61,810 nt of DNA from Terriglobia bacterium (GTDB taxonomy: Bacteria; Acidobacteriota; Terriglobia; Terriglobales; SCQP01). A program made the position numbers and the translations under genes. This document shows, one piece after another, positions 55,546 through 61,486 of this stretch. The number at the start of each line of letters is the position of its first letter. Positions within the stretch are counted from its first letter, which is position 1. The notes beneath the pieces are model-generated. The model was not told the DNA's origin and searched no databases. It saw only the letters and a program-made list of their open reading frames with translations. The stretch is taken from assembly GCA_021323595.1 (NCBI GenBank), contig JAJPKR010000035.1, forward strand, positions 1 through 61,810, read 5' to 3'.

Positions 55546-56381
55546 CTAGTTGTTCGATTCACTCGCATTCTTGGAGTTCATCAAGTGTCCGGATTCGTGA
55601 AGCGCCGTGTTTGCGGTAGTTGGTTTCACCTCGTCAACGACCAAGACTTGTTGCACATCCACCCTATAGCGGCAGCAGCTTTGGTTACCGACGCCACGAC
55701 CCGGATCATCGAACCTTCCAATCACTGTGACTTGCGCCTGCTGCCTCTTCTTGAGCAGCTTTGAGAGTCTTTTGGCAAGCGGAGATTTGGAGTCGTACTC
55801 TTCGCCAACGTGGCAAGCACCAGCTTTCCGCTTCCCGGTGCGGGTTGGCACGTATCATCACGGACGATCGCACACTCACTCCCACTCGCCAGCACCGCAC
55901 GTACTGCGACCGGCTTGCCAGCGTGCTTCTCTGCATCCGCCACTAACTCGCATACGCTCGGGCTGAAGTAACCCAGCTCTGCGGGCGAATCGAAGATTGG
56001 CGGTCGTCGCGAGGCGTCGATCTCGATTTCACTCGGCAACTGGAGAAGAACCCGTGGGTTGTTTTCGTGAGCGTCCAGATCGGTTCCGAGTTTATAGCGA
56101 TAGGTCACGGTGAACGTCGTCGGTTCATGCGATGCGAACTGCCACGTTAGAGCATTCGCCTCGGCAGCATTCGCTAGGATTTTTTGTCCGTCTTCAACAT
56201 GAGCCTCCGCCACACGATGCCCGTCTGTCGTGACTCTTACGTGCACCGCCCCTTCAACGTTTGCAGCACGTGCGATGGAAGGATACAGCGGAACTACCGC
56301 TGAGGTTATGCTAGGCAGCGCAGGCTTTGTCTGCTGTGCGGCTGCTGACGCACACAACAGCGCCACCATAACGCCGATCAC
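55546..56381 (-). pseudogene. TonB_C-OB-like exported protein, frameshifted (putative immunity 3)
   Basis: The first frame (56381-55722) has a signal peptide (VMVALLCASAAAQQ), a TonB C-terminal domain (VVPLYPSIARAANVEGAVHVRVTTDG) and the start of a small OB-like domain (ELVADAEKHAGKPVAVRAVLAS). Around 55815 the meaningful sequence moves to a second frame ending at 55546 (SPLAKRLSKLLKKRQQAQ, VTVIGRFDDPG), which completes the OB-like domain. A one-base-class indel explains this. GTG 56381 follows the upstream stop without a gap. The OB-like part resembles the immunity-like protein at 59248-59790 in layout. Confidence 0.7.
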
Positions 56382-56700: not shown

Positions 56701-57313
56701 GCGGCGTCGATAGCCTGGTCGTTGCCGCTACTGATACCACATCTCGGTGCTCCGCCGCGCGCATCAGCGGCGTGACCATCGTTGAAGATGTGCGTGAGGG
56801 ATTCGGTTTTTTGGATCGCCGTGCCTCCAACGATGCGTGTTCGCCACTTCGTCAACTGCGTCCTCAAGGTCTGCAACCCATGCCGGCGCTGAGTCGGCGT
56901 AATTCGACACGGTTTCGCTCTGGCCCGCGATTTCGACGTGAGTCTCGATGGTGCTGCTGTCGCTAATCCCGCGTGTGTAAGAAGCACACAGAGACCAGAA
57001 CTGCGGCGTGCGAAACCGCTCAAGAAGAACGCGGGCTTCCTCCGCCTTGATTGGGGCGCGGCGTTCGCCGCGCGCATTCACGAACATTCGGCCATTCCAC
57101 AACACACGGCCGTCCGCGGAGATTCGCACCATATAGATTGGTGCATGTGCCATAGCAGCCCCAACGAGACAACTCAACAAAGTCCTGCGCGCCAGTTGCA
57201 ACAGGGACCCGCGTGTCCGGCGTAGGGCAGGCCTCCGCCTGTACATCCAAGCGGGCGCCGAGACGATCGGTCGCTCCGGCCGAAAGACCGTTTTGGTGTA
57301 GGGGGCTATTCAT
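56701..57313 (-). pseudogene. DUF6438-ankyrin protein, broken by several single-base shifts
   Basis: Frame one (57313 onward) reads FVELSRWGCYGTC; an extra base near 57142 moves the continuation to PIYMVRISADGRVLWNGRMF and on to WVADLEDAVDEVANTHRWRHGDP. A second shift in an A6 run near 56807-56812 moves it to KTESLTHIFNDG, and a third to VTPLMRAAEHRDVV, which looks like an ankyrin repeat. DUF6438 proteins have C-x-G-x-C-P-x-Y at the start, exactly restored by removing the extra base. The start overlaps the previous stop (ATGA). Confidence 0.65.
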
Positions 57314-57960
57314 TCATCTCGGTACAACGATATCCATGCAACCCGGCCGTGCGCAACTCCGATTTCCGCTTCGCTCAGGTCCGCCGGTCCCGGCTGTGGC
57401 TGGTAGATGTAGATCCGCCTGTCGGCCATGATTTTTCGGGTTGATTTAGCACGGCGCCCACCCGGAAAATAAACAGTCCAGTCGCGCGGGTCGGTGTCCA
57501 CCGAAGAGGGATGCCCGTAAGCCCTGAGGAGCTCCGGCAGGGTGCTCCCAATGCCGATTCCCTTTTCCGTTTTCCAATTCTCAAAGCCGCTGGCTTGATT
57601 TATCTTCTTGCCGAAACAATTAGGCGCGGCGCTGATGGAAACCCCCCGTGAGAAGCTAGGATCATCCGTCGCGCGCTCGATAACGAGATAAGCTGGCTTT
57701 GCGTCATCACGGTAACACAGAAAGTGGCCGCGCGGGAGAGCCGGTTTTCCAGTCGCGGCCCAGAGCAAGCGCATCGGGACACCGCCTGCTTTGCCGCGCA
57801 TTTTGAAGGGTCCTAGCGCCGCGGGTCCGGAGTAACCGTCGCCTCTATGGCTCGCGCTCGCCATAGCAGGGATTCGCGCAAAGGCGCCTTGCCGGACGGG
57901 AGGCCTATAACCAAATAGAAGCGCGACCGCAGCCGCGAGGCATGTCCATGGGCCCCTCAC
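57310..57960 (-). CDS. Putative exported immunity protein for the RHS toxin (immunity 2)
   Basis: The 216-residue product starts with GTG 57960, which overlaps the RHS stop codon as GTGA. It has a signal-like N-terminus (RGPWTCLAAAVALLFGY) and a mature part with RLLWAATGKPALPRGHFLCY, GIGIGSTLPELLRAYGHP and YIYQPQPGPADLSEAEIG. No family is recognised. The overlap, export signal and position directly after a toxin tip are what one expects of an immunity protein acting outside the cytoplasm. It is lower in GC than the core genes of the window. Confidence 0.6.
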   Translation of the reverse strand: MRGPWTCLAAAVALLFGYRPPVRQGAFARIPAMASASHRGDGYSGPAALGPFKMRGKAGGVPMRLLWAATGKPALPRGHFLCYRDDAKPAYLVIERATDDPSFSRGVSISAAPNCFGKKINQASGFENWKTEKGIGIGSTLPELLRAYGHPSSVDTDPRDWTVYFPGGRRAKSTRKIMADRRIYIYQPQPGPADLSEAEIGVAHGRVAWISLYRDE

Positions 57961-59204
57961 TTCCAAATCCTCAAATAAGGGATTTGCACCTGTGGGTGCT
58001 CGTGTTGGAACTGCTCTATGGCGCTGCCGAGCCGGATAACGTCTGCATTGCACGCTCGGGTGCAGCCCATTGTCGGCCTGAGCTGCTGATAAGGGTCAAA
58101 CGCGTGTGGGCCAAGCGAATGACCACCACCGTGGATGTCGCGTCCGCGCGGATCTCCCACATCGATAAAAGCACCAGCCGGTCCGTATGACGGATCGCCG
58201 GCATGGCGATTGCTTACCCCGACAACGGTGCTCTCGAACGGACCGCCCGCACCAGGTTTGGCGTGACTGTCGACCTTGACCAGGCTTGGGATTTGAACTT
58301 CCTTGTCGCCGCCGTTCGAGCTATAGGACTGGAAGGTGGTTGTGTTTCCGTGGATACTGGTCGTCAGCTCCGCGATTGGCGGCGCAGGCGGGGCTGCCAC
58401 GGGCGGCGGAGCCGGGGTTGCGCAGGTGGTGCCGAGCTTGCCGAACACGCACCAATGCCCATCCGGGTCGGTTGCTGTCACATGGTTGTTGAGGACGTAG
58501 GTGTAGAGGTTCAGGGACTGGGGGTTCTCGACGTTGGCGTAGGGCATTGCCTTGGGGCGAGCTGCCCAGTCCGGGGTCATGAAGCGGCCGGAGTAGCCGG
58601 ATTGGAAGCGGGCGGAAAAGTAGGTGAGCGAGGTTTCGCCGTCGAATTGCTTGCCGGTGAAGTGCAAGGCGCTGACGGTGCCGACCTGGTTCAGCCAGCC
58701 GCCGTAGGGCAGTGACGTGTAGGCCTCGACCACTCCGCCGCTCAAATTGCTGCGCCCCCGCACCGTGCCCAGCCCGTCGGCGTGGTCGAAGTAGGTCGTG
58801 CCGCCCGCGTAGGTGGCCAGGTCGCGGCCGCCCGCGTAGACGTTGCCCTCGATCAACTGGCTTGGGCCGGCGAAGACGGTGCGCGCCTCCCCCGCGCGCC
58901 CGCTCACGTACTCGCGCGTCACCCCGTTGACCACCGTGTGTTCGCGCTGCCCCTGGGCGTTGTAGGCGTAGCTGGCCGTGGCGCCGCCATCCACGCCGGT
59001 CAGCCTGCCCACGGCGTCGTATTGATAGGTGTGCGTGCCGTCGCTCGTCAGTTCGCCCGCGGCGTCGTAGCCGACGCCGGCGGCGATGCGGTTGTTGGCG
59101 TCGAAGCTCAGCGCCGGCGGCGCGGGATGGGGCGCCACGAGCCACTGGGCGGTTGAGCTTTGCCGGGGATTGAGCACATGCCCGCCGGGTGGGTCGGGGT
59201 TCAT
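57957..59204 (-). CDS. RHS repeat C-terminal fragment with L,D-transpeptidase-like toxin tip
   Basis: The 415-residue product holds RHS/YD repeats (GVGYDAAGELTSDGTHTYQYD, ASYAYNAQGQREHTV) and the RHS core end (GRFMTPDWAARPK, then TATDPDGHW). After a Pro/Ala-rich linker comes a tip domain ending with DIHGGGHSLG (His358) and PTMGCTRACNADVIRL (Cys381, Arg383). The HG...GCxR pattern with a following D-x2-x-L is that of YkuD/Tlde1-type L,D-transpeptidase folds. The large N-terminal part of an RHS protein is missing. ATG 59204 is a guess; the frame is open to 59354. Confidence 0.75.
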   Translation of the reverse strand: MNPDPPGGHVLNPRQSSTAQWLVAPHPAPPALSFDANNRIAAGVGYDAAGELTSDGTHTYQYDAVGRLTGVDGGATASYAYNAQGQREHTVVNGVTREYVSGRAGEARTVFAGPSQLIEGNVYAGGRDLATYAGGTTYFDHADGLGTVRGRSNLSGGVVEAYTSLPYGGWLNQVGTVSALHFTGKQFDGETSLTYFSARFQSGYSGRFMTPDWAARPKAMPYANVENPQSLNLYTYVLNNHVTATDPDGHWCVFGKLGTTCATPAPPPVAAPPAPPIAELTTSIHGNTTTFQSYSSNGGDKEVQIPSLVKVDSHAKPGAGGPFESTVVGVSNRHAGDPSYGPAGAFIDVGDPRGRDIHGGGHSLGPHAFDPYQQLRPTMGCTRACNADVIRLGSAIEQFQHEHPQVQIPYLRIWK

Positions 59205-59247: not shown

Positions 59248-59790
59248 CTAGCTGAGGGTGGCTGGATCGTAGACGTACCTCGGCGCCGCCTTCCGCAGTG
59301 ACCGTTTTCTCGAGCGATTCGATCCGTTGACTGGTCCCGTCCTCCGCTGATCAATTTTCAAGAAGTTGATGGTGATAGATCCCAATCGCGTCACCTCAAA
59401 CTCATATCGGCCATTACCCGTTGGCCGGAGCTTTCCGGCTATGGTCACCATCACCGAGGTAGAACGATCTGCTCCGGTGAACGCTTTAAAGAGTTCCTGT
59501 TGCGCGACATCCAATGCCCTCCTCCCGGTGGATTTTTGAAAAGGGGATGTTTCGCTCCAGGTGAGGGGCACCGCTCTGTCGCATCCCTGAAGTGTGAGGC
59601 CAAAATCCGGCGGCGCGAATTCCATCCGCCCTCGCACCCATGCTTCGCTCCCCAAATATTTTGAAGGCTGGCTCAAAAGCGCACAGACTGAAATGGGCGC
59701 GCTGGCCGTTGAACCCGCCGAAAAGGCAGGCATCGCCGTGGACAAGATGCCGAAAACCGCCAAGAGCACACCCCAAAGCTGTCCTCTCAT
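59248..59790 (-). CDS. Exported OB-like protein, putative immunity 1
   Basis: The 180-residue product has a signal peptide (MRGQLWGVLLAVFGILSTAM, cleavage after SAG) and an OB-like core: VCALLSQPSKYLGSEAWVRG, GLTLQGCDRAVPLTW, VMVTIAGKLRPTGNGRYEFEV. ATG 59790 overlaps the stop of the upstream HExxH toxin (ATGA). Similar exported OB-like proteins are frequent orphans in Acidobacteriota. The coupling suggests an immunity role; that is inferred from arrangement only. Confidence 0.65.
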   Translation of the reverse strand: MRGQLWGVLLAVFGILSTAMPAFSAGSTASAPISVCALLSQPSKYLGSEAWVRGRMEFAPPDFGLTLQGCDRAVPLTWSETSPFQKSTGRRALDVAQQELFKAFTGADRSTSVMVTIAGKLRPTGNGRYEFEVTRLGSITINFLKIDQRRTGPVNGSNRSRKRSLRKAAPRYVYDPATLS

Positions 59791-60258
59791 TGACAGTTGC
59801 CCCCTTCCTGACACCAGATGGAGAGAGACCGCTTCGCGTAGTTATCAATGGCACTCTCCGAGAGCCCGGTTGAGGGCGACCAAAGCCCGAAAACACTCTT
59901 GTATTGCAGAGCCTCGTCGACTTCGCCCTGAGTGGTGAACGCCCTGTGTTCGGTCGCCAGCTCTTCACGCCCGTTCATAGGCAATCCGCCTGTGCGCTGA
60001 TCCGCGGCGTGAGTTGCCTCGTGCCCAAGGAGACCTGCTTCCTCCTTGGCGATGCTGGTCGCTCCTGCGGACACGAGCCCACGCTCGACACCCCTGATTG
60101 CCACAGTTATCGTTGTTTGCCCATTGCGAGTCCCGGTGTCGATGCGCCATTGGCTCCCCTTTACGATGGAAACCGTGACGCCGTTCTTCTGGTCTGGCTT
60201 TCCGAGAGCTTTCAGCGCCCGGTCTATATCCCTGGACTCTTGCGAGCCGGCCTTGGCG
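59787..60258 (-). pseudogene. HExxH metallopeptidase toxin tip, cut off by an insertion sequence (toxin 1)
   Basis: The open frame from the IS boundary to the stop at 59787 gives 156 residues: SRDIDRALKALGKPDQKNG, VTVSIVKGSQWRIDTGTRNG, then GLLGHEATHAADQRTG with a zinc HExxH, then ELATEHRAFTTQGEVDEAL. It looks like the C-terminal tip of a larger polymorphic toxin whose N-terminal carrier was lost when the IS3 element inserted at 60259. GTG 60104 is the only native-side start and would keep the HExxH. Confidence 0.7.
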
Positions 60259-60292
60259 TGAGCGGTCCCCTTTTTCTGATACAGCTCTCCGG

Positions 60293-61159
60293 TTAGTTTC
60301 CGGCAGGTACTGCAGCCGTGAGATCGCGGCTAGCCGCGATCTCACGGATAAATTCGTCGGGCGATCGCTCGCCGAGCGCCCGGTGAGGACGACTCCCATT
60401 GTATTCCCGCCGCCAGTCCTCGATGAGGCGCATCGCGTCGGTCGGCCCTGAGAACCAGTGGGCATCAAGACACTCCGATCGCAACGTGCCGTTGAAGCTC
60501 TCGACGAACGCGTTGTCCGTCGGCTTCCCCGGCCGGGAAAAATCGATCGTGACCTGACAGTGATAGGCCCACAGGTCGAGGGCCTGACTGGTGAACTCGC
60601 TGCCGTTGTCACAGAACAGCGCTTGCGGCGCTCCTCGCTGCCGCCGAAGCCTTTGCAGGACCCGCACAACGTCGTCTCCCTTCAAACTCTGGCCAACTTC
60701 AATCGCCAGGCATCCCCGCGTGAAAATATCGACCACCGTGAAGGCCCGAAACCGGCCTCCGGTACTGTACTGATCGGAAACAAAATCCAGGCTCCATATC
60801 TGGTTGGGGCGCTCCGCCCGGGGCCGCTGCCGGCGCTGCGCGGCCACGCGCCGTTTCTTCGGCCGCGACCGCAGCGCCAGCCCCTCCTCTCGGTAGAGCC
60901 GGTACACCAGCTTCTTGCCTACGTGCCAGCCCTCGCGGATCAGAAGAATGCGGATCTTGCGATACCCGTACCGGACCCGGGTTCTGGCCAGCTCCCGGAT
61001 CCGCAGCCGCAGTTCTGTCCTTGGAGCCTTGCGGCTCTGGTATCGGTTTGTGCCGACCGGCATCGCCACCACTCGGCAGGCCCGCCGTTCGCTCACCCCG
61101 TACCCGCCGCGCAGGTAGCTCACGACCGGGCGGCGCCGCGAGGGCTTTACCAGTTTTTT
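60293..61159 (-). CDS. IS3-family transposase OrfB (DDE catalytic part)
   Basis: This frame encodes an rve integrase core: LRGGYGVSERRACRVV at its start (IS407-like), then the DDE residues in IWSLDFVSDQYSTGG, FCDNGSEF and NAFVESFNGTLRSECL. It is expressed by -1 slippage from orfA at the AAAAAAC heptamer (61159-61153). The frame continues upstream in parallel with orfA but that part is not the transposase. Confidence 0.92.
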   Translation of the reverse strand, partial: KKLVKPSRRRPVVSYLRGGYGVSERRACRVVAMPVGTNRYQSRKAPRTELRLRIRELARTRVRYGYRKIRILLIREGWHVGKKLVYRLYREEGLALRSRPKKRRVAAQRRQRPRAERPNQIWSLDFVSDQYSTGGRFRAFTVVDIFTRGCLAIEVGQSLKGDDVVRVLQRLRRQRGAPQALFCDNGSEFTSQALDLWAYHCQVTIDFSRPGKPTDNAFVESFNGTLRSECLDAHWFSGPTDAMRLIEDWRREYNGSRPHRALGERSPDEFIREIAASRDLTAAVPAGN

Positions 61160-61413
61160 CTTAGCACGTCCTGCAGCATCGCACGGTCCAGCGTCAGCTC
61201 CGCCACCACCTTCTTCAGCCGGCCGTTCTCTTCCTGGAGCTGCCGCAACTGCCGCACCTGGTCGACCTCCAGGCCCGCGTAGAGCTTCTTCCAGCGGTAG
61301 AACGTCTGTTCCGAGACGCCCATCCGCCGAATCAGTTCCGCCACCGGCATGCCCATCTCGACCTGCTTCACCGCGGCCGTGATCTGCTCCACCGAGTACC
61401 GTTTTCGCTTCAT
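61147..61413 (-). CDS. IS3-family transposase OrfA (DNA-binding part)
   Basis: The 88-residue protein has a helix-turn-helix (KRKRYSVEQITAAVKQVEMG, RRMGVSEQTFYRWKKLYAG) and a leucine-zipper-like end (LRQLQEENGRLKKVVAELTLD). GGAGG lies upstream of ATG 61413. A_AAA_AAC at 61159-61153 near its end is a standard -1 frameshift heptamer that fuses it to OrfB. Confidence 0.9.
   Translation of the reverse strand: MKRKRYSVEQITAAVKQVEMGMPVAELIRRMGVSEQTFYRWKKLYAGLEVDQVRQLRQLQEENGRLKKVVAELTLDRAMLQDVLRKNW
61153..61159 (-). promoter_or_regulatory. A_AAA_AAC programmed -1 frameshift heptamer
   Basis: The heptamer is in register with the orfA frame (X_XXY_YYZ), and slipping one base back leads directly into orfB. 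IS3 elements use such sites to make the OrfAB transposase. Confidence 0.8.
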
Positions 61414-61486
61414 CTGGCACAATCCTCCCTGTCGGATGATTCTGCCGAAACTCACCTTCGCTCTGTATCAGTTTTCCGGGGGCCGC

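Follow-up and report, generated by a model that had tools for sequence, protein, structure and literature searches.

RHS toxins that carry an L,D-peptidase tip and have a linked immunity gene are already known. By the description of Zhang et al. (2012), L,D-peptidase toxin domains occur in polymorphic toxins of the RHS type, where they are linked to immunity proteins and are proposed to attack the cross-links of peptidoglycan (PMC3482391). Tlde1a has been studied biochemically and is described as having both L,D-carboxypeptidase and exchange activity (PMC9638812). A cargo effector candidate of Salmonella with a predicted L,D-transpeptidase domain is described as having a partner with a signal peptide (PMC10469887).

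The locus described here lies near one end of the window (the whole stretch of 61,810 nucleotides that was analysed). It has the parts that Zhang et al. ascribe to their RHS toxins: RHS repeats, a C-terminal domain of the thiol L,D-peptidase type and an adjacent immunity gene, here a candidate one, with a proposed attack on stem peptides (PMC3482391). It differs from them in three respects: 1) it is an orphan fragment; 2) its tip is divergent and, taken alone, invisible to Pfam; 3) a Met replaces the His of the SHGC motif. The sequence-only reading had suggested a new effector-immunity pair. The pair adds one more member, itself new, to a kind that has already been published (PMC3482391). The best explanation of the locus, which we consider likely, is an orphan RHS C-terminal cassette consisting of a core remnant, a YkuD-like toxin tip of the L,D-transpeptidase type and an overlapping gene for an exported immunity protein.

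Organization of the locus

The cassette and its upstream neighbours are all encoded on the minus strand.

58380..59204, minus strand: RHS core remnant of the orphan cassette (RHS_repeat PF05593, Pfam E 1.5e-5; Rhs_assc_core TIGR03696, NCBIfam E 1.2e-13; GC3 0.887)
57957..58379, minus strand: YkuD-like C-terminal tip with His358 and Cys381 of the 415-aa ORF (relatives L013, L015 and L016; GC3 0.638)
57310..57960, minus strand: candidate immunity gene, 216 aa (GTG start in the tip stop, GTGA; N-terminal hydrophobic segment)
59248..59790, minus strand: exported ORF of the upstream neighbour cassette, a candidate orphan immunity gene (hydrophobic N-terminal segment 2.36; PA14 at E 0.29 only)
59787..60290, minus strand: remnant of a further candidate tip with the sequence HEATH (from the translation, its role suggested by position; adjoins an IS3-family element at its 5' side)
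60293..61455, minus strand: IS3-family transposase genes beside the cassettes (NF033516 E 9.9e-71 for 60293-61420; ORF 61147-61455)

Read directly, the RHS fragment opens with the ATG at 59204, ends with the stop at 57957 and has 415 codons, or 465 when it is counted from the TTG at 59354. The RHS core closes with DPDG and is followed by a short linker and then by the tip, which contains HGGGH from His358 onward and TMGC with Cys381. The partner gene starts at the GTG at 57960, overlapping the TGA of the tip, and extends over 216 codons to 57310. An RHS fragment ending in a domain with HGGGH and Cys381, and a next gene that starts inside its stop codon, had both been claimed from the sequence, and both are confirmed, including the residue numbering.

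The HEATH fragment has no Pfam match; we take its resemblance to be zinc-peptidase-like. Directly downstream of the partner gene, at 56764-57246 on the minus strand, lies a gene for a DUF6438 protein (Pfam E 2.6e-19). Another gene on the same strand, at 55722-56381, encodes an exported-looking protein with a weak match to the TonB C-terminal domain (E 1.2e-4, under the Pfam cut-off).

Relatives of the tip

Some RHS proteins of other bacteria end in relatives of the tip. One is found in E. coli (L013; 38.7% identity with 87% query coverage, E 6e-12), another in Lysobacter psychrotolerans (35%), and a third in a metagenome-assembled genome of the Pyrinomonadaceae, a family within the Acidobacteriota (L016; 52% over 52 residues). 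The protein sequence of L016 recurs in a genome that is listed under the phylum of the window. A search with the single tip sequence through 396 genomes of the phylum gave 12 places in 11 genomes, of which only the window and one in genome G197 were judged real. Ten of the candidates (L002 and L004-L012) were rejected, as they do not contain the motif. The profile of the tip family was positive in 3 of the 396 genomes: the organism's own, G197 and G249. A second place in G197 (L032) was excluded, having TCGSLR instead of the Cys motif. G249 belongs to the same order as the organism, and the profile reaches in it a long RHS protein (L031, E 1.9e-4). The tip of this protein is clearly a YkuD domain by Pfam (E 1.3e-12), and a membrane-protein-like ORF comes after it. 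In the class of Lysobacter one of 369 genomes matched, and in its family one of 198, both matches being the Lysobacter already known.

No relative was found in viral contigs and no match in phage records. A plasmid copy from E. coli (L017), whose reading frame is disrupted by shifts and stop codons, was dropped from all alignments, and matches of the tip to heme-binding proteins (best E 0.03), which lie outside the catalytic stretch, were taken as chance.

The E. coli relative (L013:5851-6688) is widespread: blastn with the tip found it in 949 of 5426 complete E. coli genomes, at 99% identity or more in 945 of the 949 and with pieces covering at least 80% in 923. One annotated record names an RHS core protein and a hypothetical protein, and no activity. 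The E. coli pair (for example WP_126123763.1 and WP_001101835.1) resembles that of the window in having a homologous tip and an overlapping, exported-looking partner. It differs in that the tip belongs to a full-length RHS protein of 1411 aa with a DUF6531 domain, and in that the two partners have no detectable similarity.

Catalytic-type residues and relationship to YkuD

A pattern of the form His...GC.R...D, which was composed after the tip had been inspected, matches the six frames of the window at a single place, the tip itself, and none of 100000 shuffled tips. Alignment of the relatives shows no variation among the four sequences at H83, GGG, T103, GC, R108, N111 and D113 (alignment numbering), nor in the (S/T)xGC context of the catalytic-type His and Cys. 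It is this conservation across the relatives that exceeds chance. The usual reading of the motif in YkuD enzymes is SHGC. Its second His is replaced by Met in the window tip (TMGC) and by Gln in the Pyrinomonadaceae relative (TQGC). By a simple pattern count, 12 of 29 sampled YkuD domains have a residue other than His at this position, so the Met falls inside the natural range.

The window tip alone gives no match in Pfam (at E up to 10), NCBIfam, PADLOC or PHROGs, and its hhalign probability against YkuD is 5.4%. The other three of the four tip-family members match YkuD (PF03734), the best at E 3e-6; the profile search against L,D-transpeptidases proposed earlier is thus negative for the tip and positive for its family. 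The whole RHS proteins of E. coli and Lysobacter reach YkuD scores of 21 and 19 bits, below the Pfam cut-off of 23.4. When the four-member profile is compared with 29 acidobacterial YkuD domains, hhalign gives a probability of 89.6% and a score of 42.6, which none of 200 column shuffles reaches (maximum 16.95), and the HG and GC.R..N.D stretches are aligned with each other. A profile built without the Pyrinomonadaceae member still scores 37.3 (maximum 28.95 in 200 shuffles).

A profile search of the PDB gave eight matches with E no higher than 10. Four of them bear the name of an L,D-transpeptidase, each being weak (E at least 0.048), and the top match is a tape-measure protein (E 0.0066) and no L,D-transpeptidase. 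The match to 1y7m (hypothetical protein BSU14040, E 0.047), which we take to be B. subtilis YkuD, is aligned on the GC.R..N.D stretch. An AlphaFold model of the tip, made from three aligned sequences, had a mean pLDDT of 39.2 and was judged unusable.

The tip thus resembles the YkuD L,D-transpeptidases (PF03734) in the order of its catalytic-type His and Cys, in the GC.R..N.D stretch and in its family profile, and differs from them in being placed as a putative toxin at the end of an RHS protein and in falling below detection when searched alone. Because the case is made through its relatives and the tip itself has no family match, it is called here YkuD-like and not a member of Pfam YkuD. No YkuD domain was found in this genome at E 1e-8.

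Proposed action of the tip and its partner

If the tip were joined to a complete RHS delivery protein, it could reach the envelope of a target cell. The proposed reaction there is an attack by Cys381, with the help of His358, on the bond that follows residue three of the peptidoglycan stem peptides. The fourth residue would be trimmed or exchanged, and cross-linking would be spoiled. The small exported-looking partner probably neutralises the tip: it would be exported, bind to the tip and block it.

Orphan character of the cassette

The following observations show that the locus is a cassette and not an intact effector gene. The ORF starts just upstream of the core remnant, and a delivery N-terminus (PAAR, signal peptide or similar) is absent, which makes the locus an orphan cassette rather than a complete effector. 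At the border of core and tip the GC3 falls sharply, and that of the partner (0.627) is close to that of the tip; from these values tip and partner appear to be a single acquired module placed behind a resident core. A further cassette remnant is found upstream; it consists of the HEATH fragment (60290-59787) and the exported ORF (59790-59248) and adjoins the IS3-family element. The genome contains 12 RHS-core matches in open frames of 306-609 codons, several of them in tandem near the starts of contigs. None of the other cores is close to that of the window, the best being 54% identical over 95 residues, at a contig end. This organization is that of the orphan arrays known from CDI and RHS systems (PMC3150448).

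The toxin side of such a cassette might be decayed or silent. The RHS fragment would then be untranslated, and only the partner would be made, as a shield against neighbouring cells. No ribosome-binding-site-like sequence precedes the ATG at 59204, and a GAGG is found about 8 nt upstream of the partner start. Orphan CdiA-CT genes are described as having no initiation signals, yet the orphan immunity protein is produced (PMC3150448), and the neighbouring cassette is adjoined by an IS3 element. Neither frame of the pair, however, is interrupted, and the tip keeps its catalytic-type residues. This explanation is quite plausible, although we lean slightly against it. It concerns the present use of the cassette and is compatible with the same chemistry of the tip.

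The partner and its counterparts at other RHS ends

The sequence-only reading had given the partner a signal peptide, had regarded an exported partner as fitting a toxin that acts on the cell wall, and had not recognised the immunity family. The N-terminus of the partner has a 13-residue hydrophobic stretch with a Kyte-Doolittle mean of 2.01, so that the signal peptide stands as far as hydropathy only can tell. The lack of a known family is borne out, as no match was found in Pfam, NCBIfam, PADLOC or PHROGs. The partner also has no match in the PDB or in plasmid records, and an AlphaFold model from the single sequence, with no alignment, had a mean pLDDT of 34.8 and was judged unusable.

The fit of an exported partner to a wall target holds insofar as the N-terminus looks exported, but it is not distinctive. 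At 7 of the 9 other testable RHS ends of the genome, the next ORF begins with a hydrophobic segment at a cut-off of at least 1.8, compared with 5 of 37 control ORF ends (Fisher p 4e-4). The next ORF was chosen by a blind rule, which differs from the choice made by eye at L036 and L040; the controls are ORF ends in the window, and two RHS ends that run off their locus (L042 and L044) stand outside the count. Because exported or membrane partners prevail among the RHS tips of this genome, the exported partner becomes a weaker pointer to a cell-wall target.

It is possible, then, that the partner is exported because the RHS proteins of this organism pass through the envelope or act at it, and not on account of a wall-attacking tip. 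The T6SS sheath (PF05591), the only T6SS component sought, had no match in this 97.6% complete genome, while a control genome of E. coli was positive; this and the 7 of 9 RHS ends favour such a reading. At a stricter cut-off of 2.0, however, the difference shrinks to 4 of 9 RHS ends against 5 of 37 controls (p 0.058). The partners of the E. coli and Lysobacter members of the tip family, which lie in other genomes, have hydrophobic N-termini too. We consider this explanation doubtful, though not remote.

A scan of nine RHS tips of the genome gave one weak NlpC/P60-like match (E 0.052) and one chance-level match to a viral family; most of these tips have no recognised activity. Behind the NlpC/P60-like tip (L033:1756-2469) lies an ORF whose start resembles a signal sequence, and this tip may be a second one that acts on peptidoglycan. 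Another RHS tip (L034:916-1500, minus strand) has no Pfam match, contains a His...SEGCS stretch and has a lipoprotein-like partner. Going by this stretch, it could be a further L,D-peptidase-like tip. One may speculate that this acidobacterium, in which no T6SS sheath gene is detectable, has an envelope-directed RHS arsenal that is delivered by a non-T6SS route, with the YkuD-like tip and its partner as one module. In this extended form the idea is rather unlikely.

Partners of the tip family were compared in the same way. An N-terminal stretch above 1.8 is found in four of the five: those of the window, E. coli, Lysobacter and L031 (whose start was chosen by eye). The partner of the Pyrinomonadaceae tip gives -0.47 from its first start and has a hydrophobic start from a later ATG. 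The E. coli partner, whose gene overlaps the tip gene, resembles DUF4367 (E 2.9e-4, just under the family cut-off). The window partner has no detectable relation to that of Lysobacter, whose score was reached by 22 of 500 shuffles, or to that of E. coli (126 of 500). Homologous tips thus apparently adjoin unrelated partners. Since the partner is not detectably related to those of E. coli and Lysobacter, its immunity role is argued from its position only.

The downstream ORF could instead be an unrelated exported gene that encodes no immunity protein. No homology connects it with the partners found beside related tips. A search with the partner gave nine places beyond its own, and two exported-looking acidobacterial proteins among them (L021 and L023), which have no known linkage to RHS, share with it a segment around KGI-GST-LL-AYG-P, at a score that none of 500 shuffles reaches; L024-L027 were left out. 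Three candidate relatives (L019, L020 and L022) were rejected, as the searched pattern is absent from them. Against an unrelated gene stand the overlap of the partner start with the tip stop and the low GC3 that tip and partner have in common, compared with that of the core, as if they had arrived together. We consider an unrelated gene improbable.

Comparison with Tlde1

The sequence-only reading had named both YkuD and Tlde1-type enzymes as models for the tip. The first relationship holds through the family profile, and the second does not. Against five Tlde1 (PF10908) domains, the tip family has an hhalign score of 16.4, inside the range of 200 shuffles (maximum 19.7). The Tlde1 motif HXX14-17-(S/T)HGCh does not describe the tip, which has TMGC and a gap of 19 residues between His358 and the Thr; a His that lies 15 residues before the motif Thr is not conserved. 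The pair is like the Tlde1/Tldi1 pairs of T6SS in its proposed chemistry and in a putative exported immunity protein. It is unlike them in that the tip is RHS-borne, has no profile relation to PF10908 and occurs in a genome that gave no match to the T6SS sheath. It is highly improbable that the tip belongs to the Tlde1 family, an antibacterial effector (PMC9638812), and is carried on an RHS protein: the catalytic order H...(S/T)xGC is common to both, but the Tlde1 score is at the level of shuffles, compared with 42.6 for YkuD, and the GC.R..N.D stretch of the tip follows YkuD. Because the family profile and the relatives match YkuD, and Tlde1 does not exceed its shuffles, we regard the tip, on these comparisons, as a divergent domain of YkuD-like type that stands outside the Tlde1 family.

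Significance

A search of the literature on RHS with YkuD or D-transpeptidase, with preprints and most subscription journals outside its scope, found no publication that describes this tip subfamily. With the window tip, the L,D-peptidase toxins carried on RHS proteins gain a divergent branch. Because this branch is linked to the tip present in 949 of the 5426 complete genomes of E. coli, a well-placed relative is available for testing the chemistry. The partner, which belongs to no known family, could represent a new mode of inhibiting enzymes of the L,D-transpeptidase type.
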